Of a stretch of 64,000 nucleotides of DNA, positions 59,340 through 64,000 are shown piece by piece. The stretch spans positions 62,001 to 126,000 of the forward strand of contig NZ_JAFLWW010000002.1 of assembly GCF_018555685.1 (NCBI RefSeq), in the 5' to 3' direction. The notes under the pieces were generated by a model. That model made no database searches and was not told the origin of the DNA. It saw nothing but the letters and a program-made list of their open reading frames with translations. The stretch's first letter is position 1, and each line of letters opens with the position of its first letter. Origin of the DNA: Aminobacter anthyllidis. GTDB taxonomy: Bacteria > Pseudomonadota > Alphaproteobacteria > Rhizobiales > Rhizobiaceae. Position numbers and translations under genes: made by a program.

Positions 59340-59416
59340 TGGCGATCCCGACAGGATTCGAACCTGTGACCATCGGCTTAGAAGGCCGGTGCTCTATCCA
59401 GCTGAGCTACGGGACC
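59340..59416 (-). tRNA. tRNA-Arg (anticodon TCT)
   Basis: A complete 77-base cloverleaf with encoded CCA. The acceptor stem is GGTCCCG with CGGGATC (one G-T pair), D-arm GCTC, anticodon loop CTTCTAA, T-arm ACAGG-TTCGAAT-CCTGT. The first anticodon-stem pair is a C-A mismatch. It reads AGA and AGG codons. Confidence 0.97.
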
Positions 59417-59924: not shown

Positions 59925-60001
<77 letters not shown>

Positions 60002-60096: not shown

Positions 60097-60762
60097 TCAA
60101 TCCTTTCCTGCCGGCCGGCATGACGCGACCGAGAGGAATCGGACCCGCGGCTTCAGCAGTTGGTCGGGGCCGTGCGGTGAGGCTGCGTCGAAGAACAGGC
60201 TGTCGCCCGGCGCCATGCCGTAAAGTGCCGCCCCATGGCGCCAGACCATCTCGCCCTCCAGCATGTAGATGAACTTCATGCCGGCATGCTGGCTCAAGAG
60301 GGGACGGTCGGCATCATCAGTCAGGGTGACGAGGCAGGGTTCGACCGAGACGCCGGCGGCATCAGGGACGACGTAGCCGAGCGAGCGATGGCCGGCACGC
60401 GTGCCGCAGCGCTCGGCCGCGGCGCCGGCCTTCACGAACTTGGCGTCACGCAGTTCCTCGGACGGCTTCAGCAATACGCTGAGTGGCACGGCTAATGCGC
60501 GCGACAGCTGATGCAGCGTGGTCAGCGATGCCGAGATGATGCCGTTCTCGATCTTCGACATCATGCCGAGCGACAGGCCGGCGGCCCGCGCAAGCTCGAT
60601 GATAGTCATGCCATGCTTGCGCCTGTAAGCCCTCACCTCGCGGCCGATCGCCATTTCTAGCCGGTTGCCGTTCGCGCCGCGCAAGGCATGCTGGTCCTGA
60701 TTCAACGCCAGCGCTGCGTCCGCCATGTCGCGTCCGCCAAAGTCGAGGCCGGTTGTCGTCAT
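60097..60762 (-). CDS. XRE-family regulator with C-terminal cupin domain
   Basis: A 221-residue regulator. After a 30-residue lead, a helix-turn-helix of the XRE type covers LEMAIGREVRAYRRKHGMTIIELARAAGLSLGMMSKIENGIISASLTTLHQLSRAL; the last 80 residues form a cupin barrel (HAGMKFIYMLEGEMVWRHG, GDSLFFDAASPHGP). This class senses small molecules such as amino acid or polyamine derivatives with the cupin part. The ATG at 60762 was chosen because the frame above it runs through a leader with a hexaloop hairpin and terminator. It lies next to the amiCR and hyuA genes and shares their leader design. Confidence 0.88.
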   Translation of the reverse strand: MTTTGLDFGGRDMADAALALNQDQHALRGANGNRLEMAIGREVRAYRRKHGMTIIELARAAGLSLGMMSKIENGIISASLTTLHQLSRALAVPLSVLLKPSEELRDAKFVKAGAAAERCGTRAGHRSLGYVVPDAAGVSVEPCLVTLTDDADRPLLSQHAGMKFIYMLEGEMVWRHGAALYGMAPGDSLFFDAASPHGPDQLLKPRVRFLSVASCRPAGKD

Positions 60763-61151
60763 GCTCGCCACCTCCTGAAATGTCAAAATCGCTGCCGGCT
60801 GCCCGACGTCGCGGCCGTGACCGGCCCGCCCACTTGTTTCCGGCAGCCCATCGTGCATGGGCCGCGCTTGCCGCAATGCGACATGCAAGCGACCAGCCCG
60901 TGGCTGCGTCCAGAAACGCAAAAAGCTCCCGGCGGAGTAACCCGCGGGAGCTTTTTTGCTCTGCTATCGGCCCGCATCGGTGCGGGCGTGATGGGCTGAA
61001 GCGTCAGGGATTTAGCCGGTCATGTCAATGGCAAGTCTCGGCGTGGGCAACCTGCGGCTCGCCGGCATTCCATGCGCCACAGGTTCGGGCCGCAGGCTGG
61101 TCGACCGGGAGCGACGGCAGATCGCATCGGCCCTCCCCGGTCGATACAAGC
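60763..61151. other. 389-base region between amiR and the XRE-cupin gene
   Basis: It holds, in the minus-strand direction, a dyad at 61102-61143 (CGACCGGGAG with CTCCCCGGTCG), a longer one at 61051-61096 (GCCGCAGG with CCTGCGGC), a TTGACA at 61028-61023, the hexaloop hairpin, the terminator at 60920-60957 and then about 157 bases to the start codon. The two dyads have no T-run. No gene is supported here. Confidence 0.6.
60920..60987 (-). promoter_or_regulatory. Candidate ANTAR-controlled leader terminator of the XRE-cupin gene
   Basis: Minus-strand order: hairpin GCCCGC, loop ACCGAT, GCGGGC (60987-60970), then a linker ending GAGCAAA, then a terminator of 11 paired bases, AAAAAGCTCCC with GGGAGCTTTTT (60957-60920). 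The six-base loop has A at position 1 and G at position 4, the ANTAR-target signature. A TTGACA begins 41 bases before the hairpin. The terminator is nearly identical to that before hyuA. It could alternatively be the simple terminator of amiCR. Confidence 0.65.
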
Positions 61152-61808
61152 CTACGCAACGTGCACTGCCTCCTTCACCGGCAGCTTGAGCACATCGCTG
61201 GCGTTGATGATGGCGAGCGCGATCGCCTCGATCGTGGTGCGCTTGTTCATCGCCTGCTCGCGCAAGGTCTCGTAAGCGACCTGTTCCGATACGTTGTTGG
61301 TGGCCATCAGGATTTCCTTGGCCTTGTCGATGTCGCGGTGTGCCTTCAGCTTCGCCGACAGCCGCTCGACACGGATGCGCAGCCGCTCCTCGCGCCGGTG
61401 ATTGTTGACGCTCAGAAGTATGTTCGCCAGGATTCCGAAAGTCCGCAGCGGCAGGCCGATCACCGCCTGCGCCCGCAGGCGCAAAACCTTCTCGACAATG
61501 ATCGGGTTCTCATAATCAACGATGGCGATCAGCACCGCCGGCGGATCGTCTGCATTCCAGTTCCAGGTGATGCCGCCTTCGACAAGCGGGCGGATGAAGG
61601 CGAACACCACGTCGATGTTGGCAGGAATTTCGGCCGGCGGCGGCCAGTTGGTCTGGACCTGGCAGCCGATCCTGTTGAGGTGCTGCCAAAGCTCTTCGCC
61701 TTCGCTGCTCTTGGGTTGCAGCAGCAGGACGCGGAGCGAGCGTATGTCCTTGATCTGGATCGGCGCGGATCCGTCATGCGGCGCCACGTGGGGGCTACGT
61801 GATACCAT
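61152..61808 (-). CDS. amiR: ANTAR-domain antiterminator, AmiR/NasT-like
   Basis: A 218-residue protein of the AmiR type. Residues about 24-125 form a pseudo-receiver domain (RVLLLQPKSSEGEELWQHLNRIGCQVQ) without the phosphorylated aspartate context; a coiled-coil helix links to the ANTAR RNA-binding domain at about 143-205 (DKAKEILMATNNVSEQVAYETLREQAMNKRTTIEAIALAI). ANTAR proteins bind paired six-base-loop hairpins in leader RNA and prevent formation of a terminator. It follows the AmiC-like gene by 92 bases, as amiR follows amiC in Pseudomonas aeruginosa. Symbol is by homology only. Confidence 0.92.
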   Translation of the reverse strand: MVSRSPHVAPHDGSAPIQIKDIRSLRVLLLQPKSSEGEELWQHLNRIGCQVQTNWPPPAEIPANIDVVFAFIRPLVEGGITWNWNADDPPAVLIAIVDYENPIIVEKVLRLRAQAVIGLPLRTFGILANILLSVNNHRREERLRIRVERLSAKLKAHRDIDKAKEILMATNNVSEQVAYETLREQAMNKRTTIEAIALAIINASDVLKLPVKEAVHVA

Positions 61809-61900
61809 TGTTCCTCATCGCGGCAATGTCGCGGTTCCGAATTTCCAACGCTTGCCTGTGGTGTCGTTTTGTTGGTTGGCCTGCGCCCTTCGGCACAGGA

Positions 61901-63058
61901 TCATAGCGAATGCATCGCCAATCGCTCCCCCCATTCTTCGGGATTGTAGCTGGCCAGATAGGGATCAGGCCGAATTGCGGATGCGGATTTCGACAGGATC
62001 TCGAACTGGCCGTCCTCACGCGCCCGTGCCACCCGCGGCCACACATAGGTGTGCGCGTTATCAGGATCGATGCGGATGCGCCCCTGGGGCGCGTCGAATT
62101 CCGAGCCGAGAATTGCCGGCCGCAACGCCTCGACATCGTCGGTCCTGGCTTTGCGCAGCGCATTCGCCACCACGTGGACCTGGAAGTAGGCCGCTTCCCA
62201 ACACATGTTGGTCACGGCATCGCCGCCGAACTTCTTTTTGTAGCGCTCGACACAGCGTTCGTTCTGCATGCCACCGACGGACTGAAAATAGGTGGCTGAC
62301 GTAATATGCCCGGCGCCCACATCGATGCCCATCGCCTGGATGTCGGACTCACTGGTTGTCAGGCTGGCGATCGGCATCGACTTCGCATCGAGGCCCGCTT
62401 CCGCAAACGCCTGATAGAAATGGACGATGCTTTCGCCGACGAAATTGCAGAAGATCAGGTCCGGCTGCTTGCGTTTGATGTCTGATATCAGCGGCTTGTA
62501 GGCCGCCCGCCTGGCGTCGAGCTTCAGATAGCCCCGGCCAGCCACCTCCCCGCCATGCTTCAGCACCATCTCGGTCATGATGCGGTCTGACTCGCGCGGC
62601 CATATGTAGTCGGAGCCGACCATGTAGAAGCGCTTGCCGACATGGTTGAGGAGATGCTCCCCCAGCTGAACGCTGTTCTGGTTGGGGGCGGCACCGCAGT
62701 AGATGGCATTGCGCGAGTACTCGAAGCCCTCATACTGGGCGGGGTAGCAGAGCAGCCCGTTGCGGTGCTCGACCGCTTTCAGCACAGCCTTGCGCGTGCT
62801 CGACATGTAGCAGCCAAAGATGATCCTGACGCTGTCCTCGACAAGCAACCGGTTTGCCAGGCGATTGTAGGCGACTGCATCGGAGAATGGGTCGTAATGG
62901 ACCGCCACGAGCTCACGCCCGTTGATGCCGCCGGCTTCATTGACCTCGTGGATCGCAAACAGCGTCGCATTCAGCATGCTGCGTTCCATCACCGAAGTGA
63001 CGCCGGTCTGGGAGAACAACACGCCGACCTTCATCGGCTCCTCGGTTCTTGTCGCCAT
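61901..63058 (-). CDS. amiC: AmiC-like cytosolic ligand-sensor, periplasmic-binding-protein fold
   Basis: A 385-residue member of the AmiC/urea-short-chain-amide binding protein family. There is no signal peptide: it starts MATRTEEPMKVGVLFSQTG, so the binding-protein fold stays in the cytosol, as for AmiC, which holds AmiR inactive until an amide binds. Family segments include HYDPFSDAVAYNRLANRLL, GCYMSSTRKAVLKAVE and GLLCYPAQYEGFEYSRNAIYCGA. Ligand may be an amide, urea or hydantoin-like compound connected to the adjacent hydantoinase gene; that is inference. ATG 63058 is used; a TTG one codon earlier is unlikely. Confidence 0.92.
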   Translation of the reverse strand: MATRTEEPMKVGVLFSQTGVTSVMERSMLNATLFAIHEVNEAGGINGRELVAVHYDPFSDAVAYNRLANRLLVEDSVRIIFGCYMSSTRKAVLKAVEHRNGLLCYPAQYEGFEYSRNAIYCGAAPNQNSVQLGEHLLNHVGKRFYMVGSDYIWPRESDRIMTEMVLKHGGEVAGRGYLKLDARRAAYKPLISDIKRKQPDLIFCNFVGESIVHFYQAFAEAGLDAKSMPIASLTTSESDIQAMGIDVGAGHITSATYFQSVGGMQNERCVERYKKKFGGDAVTNMCWEAAYFQVHVVANALRKARTDDVEALRPAILGSEFDAPQGRIRIDPDNAHTYVWPRVARAREDGQFEILSKSASAIRPDPYLASYNPEEWGERLAMHSL

Positions 63059-63101
63059 CAATTGCCAACTCCGTCAGATTGTTCATCCGCGAACTCGACA
63101 C

Positions 63102-63170
63102 AAAAAAAGCGCCCAGCGCGGGGAAACCGCAGCAAGCGCCTTTGCTCGACCGTCAGGGACATCGCTGTCC
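63102..63170 (-). promoter_or_regulatory. Candidate ANTAR-controlled leader terminator of amiCR
   Basis: Minus-strand order: hairpin GGAC, loop AGCGAT, GTCC (63170-63157), then a linker with GAGCAAA, then a terminator (63140-63102) of about 13 pairs including G-T pairs, GGCGCTTGCTGCGG with CCCGCGCTGGGCGC, followed by T7. The loop has A at position 1 and G at position 4. It lies 44 bases before the amiC start codon, within a transcript leader, so it must be overcome for expression. A TTGACG lies 37 bases before the hairpin. Confidence 0.7.
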
Positions 63171-63362
63171 TTACGTAAGTTGTGCCTGAAGCTACATAGC
63201 GCGTCAACTCGCTTGCGCTTCGGCAGGCAACATTCGTCTTCGAGACGAAAACTCATTCGCAGGCTTCAGCGCCGAGCGCGCGTCGAGCAGGCTTCTGCCA
63301 AGCCGGCAACCGTGCAAATCCAAGGCTTTCCCTGGCATTGGACGCGTCGCGCGAATTGCCAG

Positions 63363-63391
63363 TTGACAGAAATCCGCAAGTCTCGGATGAT
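63363..63391 (+). promoter_or_regulatory. Candidate promoter of the hyuA leader
   Basis: TTGACA at 63363-63368, a 17-base spacer, and GATGAT at 63386-63391 (four of six matches to TATAAT). The transcript would start a few bases before the hexaloop hairpin at 63404. A hairpin ATCCG-CAAGTCT-CGGAT lies between the two boxes. Confidence 0.55.
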
Positions 63392-63403
63392 CATCGACAT
63401 CAG

Positions 63404-63472
63404 GCCTGCGACGCTGCGGGCTGAGAACAGAGCAAAAAGGCTCCCGCGGGTTATCTCCGCCGGAGCCTTTTT
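63404..63472 (+). promoter_or_regulatory. Candidate ANTAR-controlled leader terminator of hyuA
   Basis: Hairpin GCCTGC, loop GACGCT, GCGGGC (63404-63421, one G-T pair), linker ending GAGCAAA, then terminator AAAAAGGCTCC with GGAGCCTTTTT (63434-63472) and an inner GCGG-CCGC pair. The loop has G at position 4 but G rather than A at position 1. The terminator core, CCCGCGGGTTA followed by CTCCGCC, matches the one before the XRE-cupin gene even in unpaired positions. About 212 bases separate it from the hyuA start. Confidence 0.68.
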
Positions 63473-63684
63473 GCGTTTCATCACCAGTGCGCTGCGCCCG
63501 ACTTTTCTTCGGCTCCGCAGACAGCAACGACGCTGACAATACCCATTGCCGCTTGGAGCAACGCAAGTCGCTCTCAAACAAAAATCACCGGGATTCCTTT
63601 GGGAACTCGGACATGCGGAGCTTTGTCAAAACAATCCGCGTGGTGGGAACTTCGAAAAAACATCAGCCTGAGGAGGAACTGGAC

Positions 63685-64000
63685 GTGAATAAAGTAGAAA
63701 CGTTTGGCACTGCGGTGCGCGTGGCCTGCGATGTGGGCGGCACGTTTACCGACGTGTGCATCCTGAACGAGGCTTCCGGCAAGATACATGTGGCCAAGAC
63801 GCCGACGACGCCGGATCCGATCGACGGCGTGCTCAAGGGCATCGAAGCGGGCGGCGTCGCCCTTCGCGACATCATCCTGTTCTCGCACGGCACGACGCTG
63901 GCAACGAATGCGCTGATCACCCGCCGCTTCCCGCCCGCCATCATGGTGACGACCAAGGGTTTTCGCGACGTCATCGAAATTCGGCGCGGCACGCGTGACG
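63685..64000 (+). CDS. hyuA: Hydantoinase/oxoprolinase family protein, N-terminal part (runs off window)
   Basis: The first 105 residues of a HyuA-type protein (hydantoinase A, 5-oxoprolinase or acetophenone carboxylase alpha family). The actin-like ATP-binding motif DVGGTFTDVCI is at residues 16-26, followed by SHGTTLATNALITRRFPPAIMVTTKGFRDVIEI, which is highly conserved in the family. Enzymes of this type use ATP to open cyclic amides or carboxylate ketones, usually with a HyuB subunit encoded next. Start is GTG at 63685, eight bases after AGGAGG. The gene continues beyond base 64000. Confidence 0.9.
   Translation, partial: MNKVETFGTAVRVACDVGGTFTDVCILNEASGKIHVAKTPTTPDPIDGVLKGIEAGGVALRDIILFSHGTTLATNALITRRFPPAIMVTTKGFRDVIEIRRGTRD

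Follow-up and report, generated by a model that had tools for sequence, protein, structure and literature searches.

A stretch of 64,000 nucleotides from Aminobacter anthyllidis (assembly GCF_018555685.1, contig NZ_JAFLWW010000002.1, positions 62,001 to 126,000; hereafter the window, whose own numbering is used throughout) was found to harbor, towards its right end, an amiC-amiR gene pair, an XRE-cupin regulator gene, the beginning of a hyuA gene and three structured leaders, located at 60920-61028 (XRE leader), 63102-63207 (ami leader) and 63363-63472 (hyu leader). As judged from the sequences, these components probably constitute an AmiC/AmiR-type ANTAR antitermination regulon (estimated probability about 0.88), in which hyuA-hyuB-permease, amiC-amiR and the XRE-cupin gene would be controlled through the three leaders. 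In the available text of Ramesh 2012 (PMC3369931) and PMC8934654, an ANTAR antiterminator is described as two hexaloop hairpins, each with A at loop position 1 (A1) and G at position 4 (G4), the second of which excludes the terminator. Every leader of the locus contains a -35-like TTGAC box, a weak -10-like hexamer 17 bases on, a first hairpin (P1), a second hairpin (P2) and an intrinsic terminator. The three P1 loops, the GAGCAAA sequence and the terminators reported in the initial annotation were all recovered at their positions. GAGCAAA, which had been taken as the end of a linker, is actually the 5' arm of the hexaloop hairpin P2 (GAGC-six bases-GCTC); the dual-hairpin logic had been missed, and hence the match to the AmiR/NasR/EutV mechanism as the available text of the sources presents it.

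The XRE leader lies on the minus strand and consists of a promoter-like TTGACA-17-GACGCT (61000-61028; recognized by eye and by a spacing identical to that of the hyu leader), P1 with the loop ACCGAT (60971-60986; A1, G4), P2 with the loop AAAAAA (60948-60961; A1, no G4) overlapping the terminator, and the terminator itself (60920-60957; fold of -23.9 kcal/mol), which, going by its position, is where the amiC-amiR transcript ends as well. The ami leader, likewise on the minus strand, has the promoter-like TTGACG-17-CACAAC (63179-63207; by eye), P1 with the loop AGCGAT (63157-63170; A1, G4), P2 with the loop AAAGGC (63134-63147; A1, G4) and a terminator at 63102-63143 (-19.9 kcal/mol). On the plus strand, the hyu leader presents TTGACA-17-GATGAT (63363-63391; 10 of 12 consensus matches), P1 with the loop GACGCT (63405-63420; G1, G4), P2 with the loop AAAAAG (63430-63443; A1, no G4) and a terminator at 63434-63472 (-24.4 kcal/mol). 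The distance from the end of the hexamer to the start of P1 is 36 bases in the XRE and hyu leaders and 31 bases in the ami leader (42, 42 and 37 bases, respectively, when counted from the first base of the hexamer). All three leaders display the dual-hexaloop arrangement, with a P1-P2 linker of 9-10 nt (counting 4-bp stems) and with the loop and 3' arm of P2 overlapping the 5' arm of the terminator. The strict A1/G4 consensus in both loops was observed for the ami leader (AGCGAT, AAAGGC) and not for the hyu and XRE leaders of this strain, which share the same architecture; the hyu leaders of A. niigataensis and A. aganoensis exhibit A1/G4 in both loops (AACGTT, AAAGAA).

Sixteen leaders from seven genomes were folded. 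When cut from P1 through the end of P2, 15 of the 16 fold as P1 plus P2, the exception being the ami leader of Mesorhizobium sp. Root552, and the complete leaders all fold with the terminator (16 of 16), 3.7-14.9 kcal/mol more stable than the P2-forced form; the P2 and terminator folds are mutually exclusive. With 5' sequence added and the cut made after P2, the XRE and hyu leaders retain both P1 and P2. Small deviations comprised an extra linker hairpin in two XRE leaders and a three-base P1 loop in two ami leaders, and RNAfold pairs loop positions 1 and 6 in most P1 hairpins.

A strict motif scan, which required a G4-bearing P1 hexaloop, a linker, an A1-bearing P2 hexaloop and a terminator overlapping P2, was run on both strands of the window and returned four register matches at three places, all of them these leaders. 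No match appeared in 20 dinucleotide shuffles, and a larger control gave 44 matches over 1000 shuffles, with at most two in any single one; the true odds are less extreme than these figures because the leaders were already known when the scan rules were drawn up. In the whole 6.7-Mb genome, a P1-plus-P2 model (R2) ranked the three leaders as the top three of 17 matches, and the motif was absent from the other 14 places even under loose rules. The proposal of a self-contained three-leader regulon in the initial annotation held up, as no fourth member was found in the genome; since these leaders had served to train the model and 150 of 1792 candidates were scored in the first look, a divergent target may have escaped. 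A model built from the XRE and hyu leaders (R1) also produced a match in another genome (G007, E 2.4e-5), which by eye is an ordinary intergenic terminator and was rejected; some other R1 matches represent the opposite strand of these leaders, and further matches start at 5e-4. General ANTAR control of HyuA relatives was likewise rejected, as none of the 26 distant hyuA loci that were scanned together with 1.5-kb flanks (from 31 such genomes found) carries the strict motif, and the motif was also absent at all 16 further XRE homologues scanned (from 44 matches in all).

The leaders are retained in most relatives, an outcome in line with the initial annotation. The amiR gene is present in 6 of 10 genomes of the genus, five of which keep P1, P2 and terminator upstream of hyuA. 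Within the clade of the window, 3 of 4 hyu leaders and all four XRE leaders retain these three elements, each of them with G4 in P1; the XRE leader is kept in all four genomes that have the XRE gene at that place, and A1/G4 of its P1 persists in 4 of 4 despite one loop having changed to ATCGAA. For the ami leader, 4 of 7 genomes yield a strict-scan match, and P2 and terminator are present in 7 of 7; the seventh genome is that of Mesorhizobium sp. Root552, which has no close hyuA. Between the two clades hyuA is 95.6% identical and the hyu leaders only 61-66%, with the architecture kept, and therefore the architecture outlives the sequence. In a nine-leader alignment of related rows, started at P1 by hand, P1 and P2 positions pair in 95.1% of cases versus 81.6% in shuffles (P1 alone 91.1%), and the number of cells changed on both sides (8) and the covariation score were reached by 0 of 500 shuffles. 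Such P1-anchored alignments were made because MAFFT shifted some hexaloops, and they bias pair counts towards the structure. The hairpin covariation that had been suggested as a check was seen in the score and in pairs of P1, but the count of pairs is ordinary; in P2 a single pair varies, and on one of its sides only, so that P2 is without covariation support. Beyond the genus, the linkage of amiC-amiR with hyuA-hyuB-permease recurs in UBA7697 (Hyphomicrobiaceae) and, in another family, in two genomes belonging to a single genus, in no case with a leader that passes the strict scan; UBA7697 exhibits a P1-like TCGC-AAAGAT-GCGA upstream of hyuA. An order-wide search returned an AmiR match at 1e-45 in 5 of 397 genomes, the own genome included.

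The protein identities proposed initially were confirmed. The amiC-like sensor gene (61901-63058, minus strand) encodes a Peripla_BP_5 protein of the periplasmic-binding-protein fold (PDB 1pea AmiC, 4.5e-79), whose N-terminus, judged by eye only, is without signal-peptide-like features. The amiR-like gene (61152-61808, minus strand) encodes a product with the AmiR-type combination of a pseudo-receiver AmiR_N domain (3.5e-32) and an ANTAR domain (4.8e-14), matching AmiR (1qo0_D) at 2.9e-21 and EutV at 5.9e-11 in the PDB. Seven of the ten RNA-contact residues of EutV given in the available text are identical in this AmiR, including the tyrosine that stacks on G4, with one K replaced by R and two further positions (R142 and R177) differing, as mapped by hand with the offset fixed on the tyrosine; the ten mapped residues are identical across both clades. 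The regulator gene (60097-60762, minus strand; ATG at 60762 preceded by AGGAGG) combines an XRE-family helix-turn-helix (HTH_3) with a C-terminal cupin (Cupin_2). It points outward, as originally described, but it shares the strand of amiC-amiR and lies directly 3' of amiR, so that only hyuA is divergent. The latter (hydantoinase/oxoprolinase A, Hydant_A_N; 63685-64000, plus strand) extends beyond the window end; next come hyuB and a gene for an apparent multi-span membrane protein (locus L006:4186-9723). HyuA and HyuB match N-methylhydantoinase (7hk5) and 5-oxoprolinase/hydantoinase (6yra) in the PDB, with scores for the named enzymes that fall under the NCBIfam cut-offs. The third gene of the operon (L006:8386-9723, past the window end) encodes a 445-aa product, multi-span by eye, for which no credible Pfam, NCBIfam or PDB match was found; the gene accompanies hyuAB and amiCR in three families, and its product possibly represents an undescribed transporter family. 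Two tRNA genes, tRNA-Arg(tct) at 59340-59416 and tRNA-Pro(tgg) at 59925-60001, adjoin the XRE end of the locus.

Differential arrangements of the locus were observed for the two clades. In A. aganoensis the genes run on one strand as amiC-amiR-leader-hyuA-hyuB-permease-dehydrogenase-like gene-XRE, and the order appears the same in A. niigataensis, where XRE is truncated; in the clade of the window, hyuAB-permease diverges from amiC with its own leader, and XRE occupies the place of the other clade's hyu leader. The XRE genes of the two clades form a joint group (99/97) that is separate from the 15 other rows, with an identity between clades of only 56% (71% over the truncated piece). In the window strain the XRE and hyu leaders are 78% identical, and the hyu leaders between clades 66% (column bootstrap 0.98). 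From these comparisons, the XRE leader appears to be a duplicate of the hyu leader that remained after a rearrangement, with gene conversion as a possible alternative source of the likeness. In addition, a perfect palindrome, GATGATCATC (63386-63395), overlaps the -10 box of the hyu leader; it is kept in the four genomes with a separate XRE gene and absent from the two of the other clade, and is speculatively regarded as a candidate XRE operator.

The genome also contains four further ANTAR-type proteins, two on contig 25, one about 12 kb away and one elsewhere on contig 12, which are 25-38% identical to this AmiR. A strict scan of the other amiC-amiR systems (L007-L009) found no leader. On contig 25 (L008:8866-10957), an AmiC/AmiR-like pair is followed by a TTGACG box, P1 (GAGAC-AATGTG-GTCT(G)), P2 (TGGC-TATGTA-GCCC) and a terminator, detected by a loose scan; this dual hairpin has G4 in both loops and T1 in P2, its stems and loops are unlike those of the leaders described here, and the genes after it resemble, by eye, a UrtA-type ABC transporter. 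Another AmiC/AmiR-like pair (L006:13214-15051) lies about 3.5 kb beyond the hyu operon and is followed by ABC permease genes, with a looser dual hairpin seen by eye at L006:13220, and a third (L007:4203-6033) has, by eye, transporter-like genes some distance after it and no clear leader. Loose-rule matches in L019 (two), L085 and L108 included none that combines A1/G4 loops with a strong terminator.

For the mode of action, we infer the binding of AmiR, the ligand, the direction of control and the role of the XRE protein from the genes and leaders. Without ligand, AmiR would be kept inactive by AmiC, and RNA polymerase starting from each promoter would halt at the terminator of the respective leader. 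AmiC bound to its ligand, probably a cyclic amide, a ureide or a compound formed by their breakdown, would release AmiR, which would bind the hexaloops of P1 and then P2 in the nascent leader. Because P2 uses the 5' arm of the terminator, the holding of P2 would permit read-through into hyuA-hyuB-permease, into amiC-amiR (a positive feedback) and into XRE-cupin. The terminator of the XRE leader, being located just 3' of amiR, is probably where the amiC-amiR message stops as long as AmiR is inactive; once AmiR is active, the message would extend into XRE. The three leaders form a gradation, from A1/G4 in both loops (ami) through a P2 lacking G4 (XRE) to a P2 lacking G4 together with a P1 lacking A1 (hyu). 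A tentative extension, which we regard as possible though doubtful, is that a single AmiR reads these graded leaders, with G4 of P2 dispensable and the loops setting the strength or order of induction, that the leader was copied whole when the hyu operon moved, the copy left behind amiR having captured XRE, and that the attenuator also serves as a switchable terminus for the regulator message.

Several observations weigh against such a regulon. G4 is missing from P2 of the hyu and XRE leaders and P1 of the hyu leader has G1, and in the available text of PMC3369931 a change of G4 to A in P2 lowered induction by EutV; the hyu and XRE leaders may either respond weakly or be read by an AmiR that does not need G4 in P2. 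When the ami leader is extended at its 5' side and cut just after P2, P1 stays and P2 is displaced by another pairing. In one genome (G002; L021:8080-8372) about 50 bases with P2 and the terminator of the hyu leader are missing and P1 is retained, possibly through an assembly fault, barring which its hyu operon is predicted to be constitutive. The ami leaders of A. niigataensis, A. aganoensis and Root552 fail the strict scan, as do four distant amiC-amiR loci (L106-L109, two from one genus). Pairs with changes on both sides number 3 of 9, all in P1, which was equalled by 92 of 500 shuffles, and an earlier eight-leader alignment contained one such pair only. The R2 E-values of the three leaders (3.8e-9, 7.7e-8 and 1.1e-5, with the fourth match at 0.055) are circular, as R2 was trained on leaders including these three. 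A generic promoter and terminator scan reported the hyu promoter only and missed the other two promoters and all three terminators; RNAfold was used for this reason and folds all three. Rfam cmscan (E up to 10) yielded only two tRNAs above the cut-offs and four matches below them, of which mir-934 and ctRNA_p42d fall on the hyu and XRE terminators.

The irregular loops, together with the loss of the hyu P2 and terminator in one species, would also suit a situation in which only the ami leader works as a switch and its hyu and XRE counterparts, being copies in decay, have come to act as ordinary leaky terminators; this appears unlikely given the retention of all three elements and of G4 in P1 by nearly all leaders of the window's clade. 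That XRE stands outside the regulon, its leader being no more than the terminator at the 3' end of amiC-amiR, with a hairpin that resembles P1 by chance, is suggested by the position of that leader directly 3' of amiR on the same strand and by the failure of the generic scan to see its promoter, yet it shares the promoter-P1 spacing of the hyu leader and 78% of its sequence, A1/G4 of its P1 outlasted the change to ATCGAA, and the XRE orthologue of A. aganoensis ends the gene run after hyuA-hyuB-permease, so we consider this quite improbable. Antitermination by one or several of the other AmiR-like or ANTAR proteins seems very improbable: four such proteins exist, and similar leaders stand beside at least one of them (L008), but in seven close genomes leaders of the present kind adjoin this amiC-amiR pair, the other proteins are only distantly similar to this AmiR, and the stems and loops of L008 differ. 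Control of the three units by the local AmiR remains the preferred reading.

If correct, this reading would extend ANTAR antitermination to a hydantoinase/oxoprolinase-type catabolic cluster and to a DNA-binding regulator, would illustrate how a regulon may gain a target through leader duplication, and would provide natural tests of the loop rules established for EutV (G4-to-A in P2, G1 in P1, a leader without P2 and terminator); the inducer, in turn, may hint at the HyuAB substrate. The link between ANTAR control and hydantoinase genes, which had been put forward as undescribed, was not found in the openly licensed papers that the searches listed (supplementary target lists excluded), and the only co-mention of ANTAR with XRE and cupin in such papers was, in its available text, a Mycobacterium avium diagnostics study; the available text of PMC8164766 concerns actinobacteria. 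Two other claims of novelty did not survive: control of the sensor operon by its own product is already described for Pseudomonas, where antitermination by AmiR covers the entire ami operon, with its amiC and amiR genes (available text of PMC5259723), and known systems are not limited to one or a few enzyme operons, since multi-operon ANTAR regulons, mostly of nitrogen metabolism, are in print (available text of PMC3369931). The antitermination mechanism and the autoregulation are thus known, and the target genes and the manner in which the set has grown look new. As far as the available texts go, the amiEBCRS operon of Pseudomonas aeruginosa shares with the present locus the AmiC/AmiR pair (PDB 1pea, 1qo0), the antitermination of the full operon and a leader of two hexaloop hairpins (PMC3369931), and differs in being an aliphatic amidase operon, whereas three leaders, a HyuA/HyuB enzyme likened to the ATP-dependent hydantoinase/oxoprolinase family (N-methylhydantoinase, caprolactamase, acetophenone carboxylase) and a DNA-binding regulator are encountered here. 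The EutV/eut system of Enterococcus faecalis, on the same basis, has the P1/P2 hexaloops, the short linker, the P2-terminator overlap and several leaders in common with it, but EutV is activated by phosphorylation, whereas the AmiR described here is presumably controlled by AmiC and faces two P2 hairpins that lack G4.

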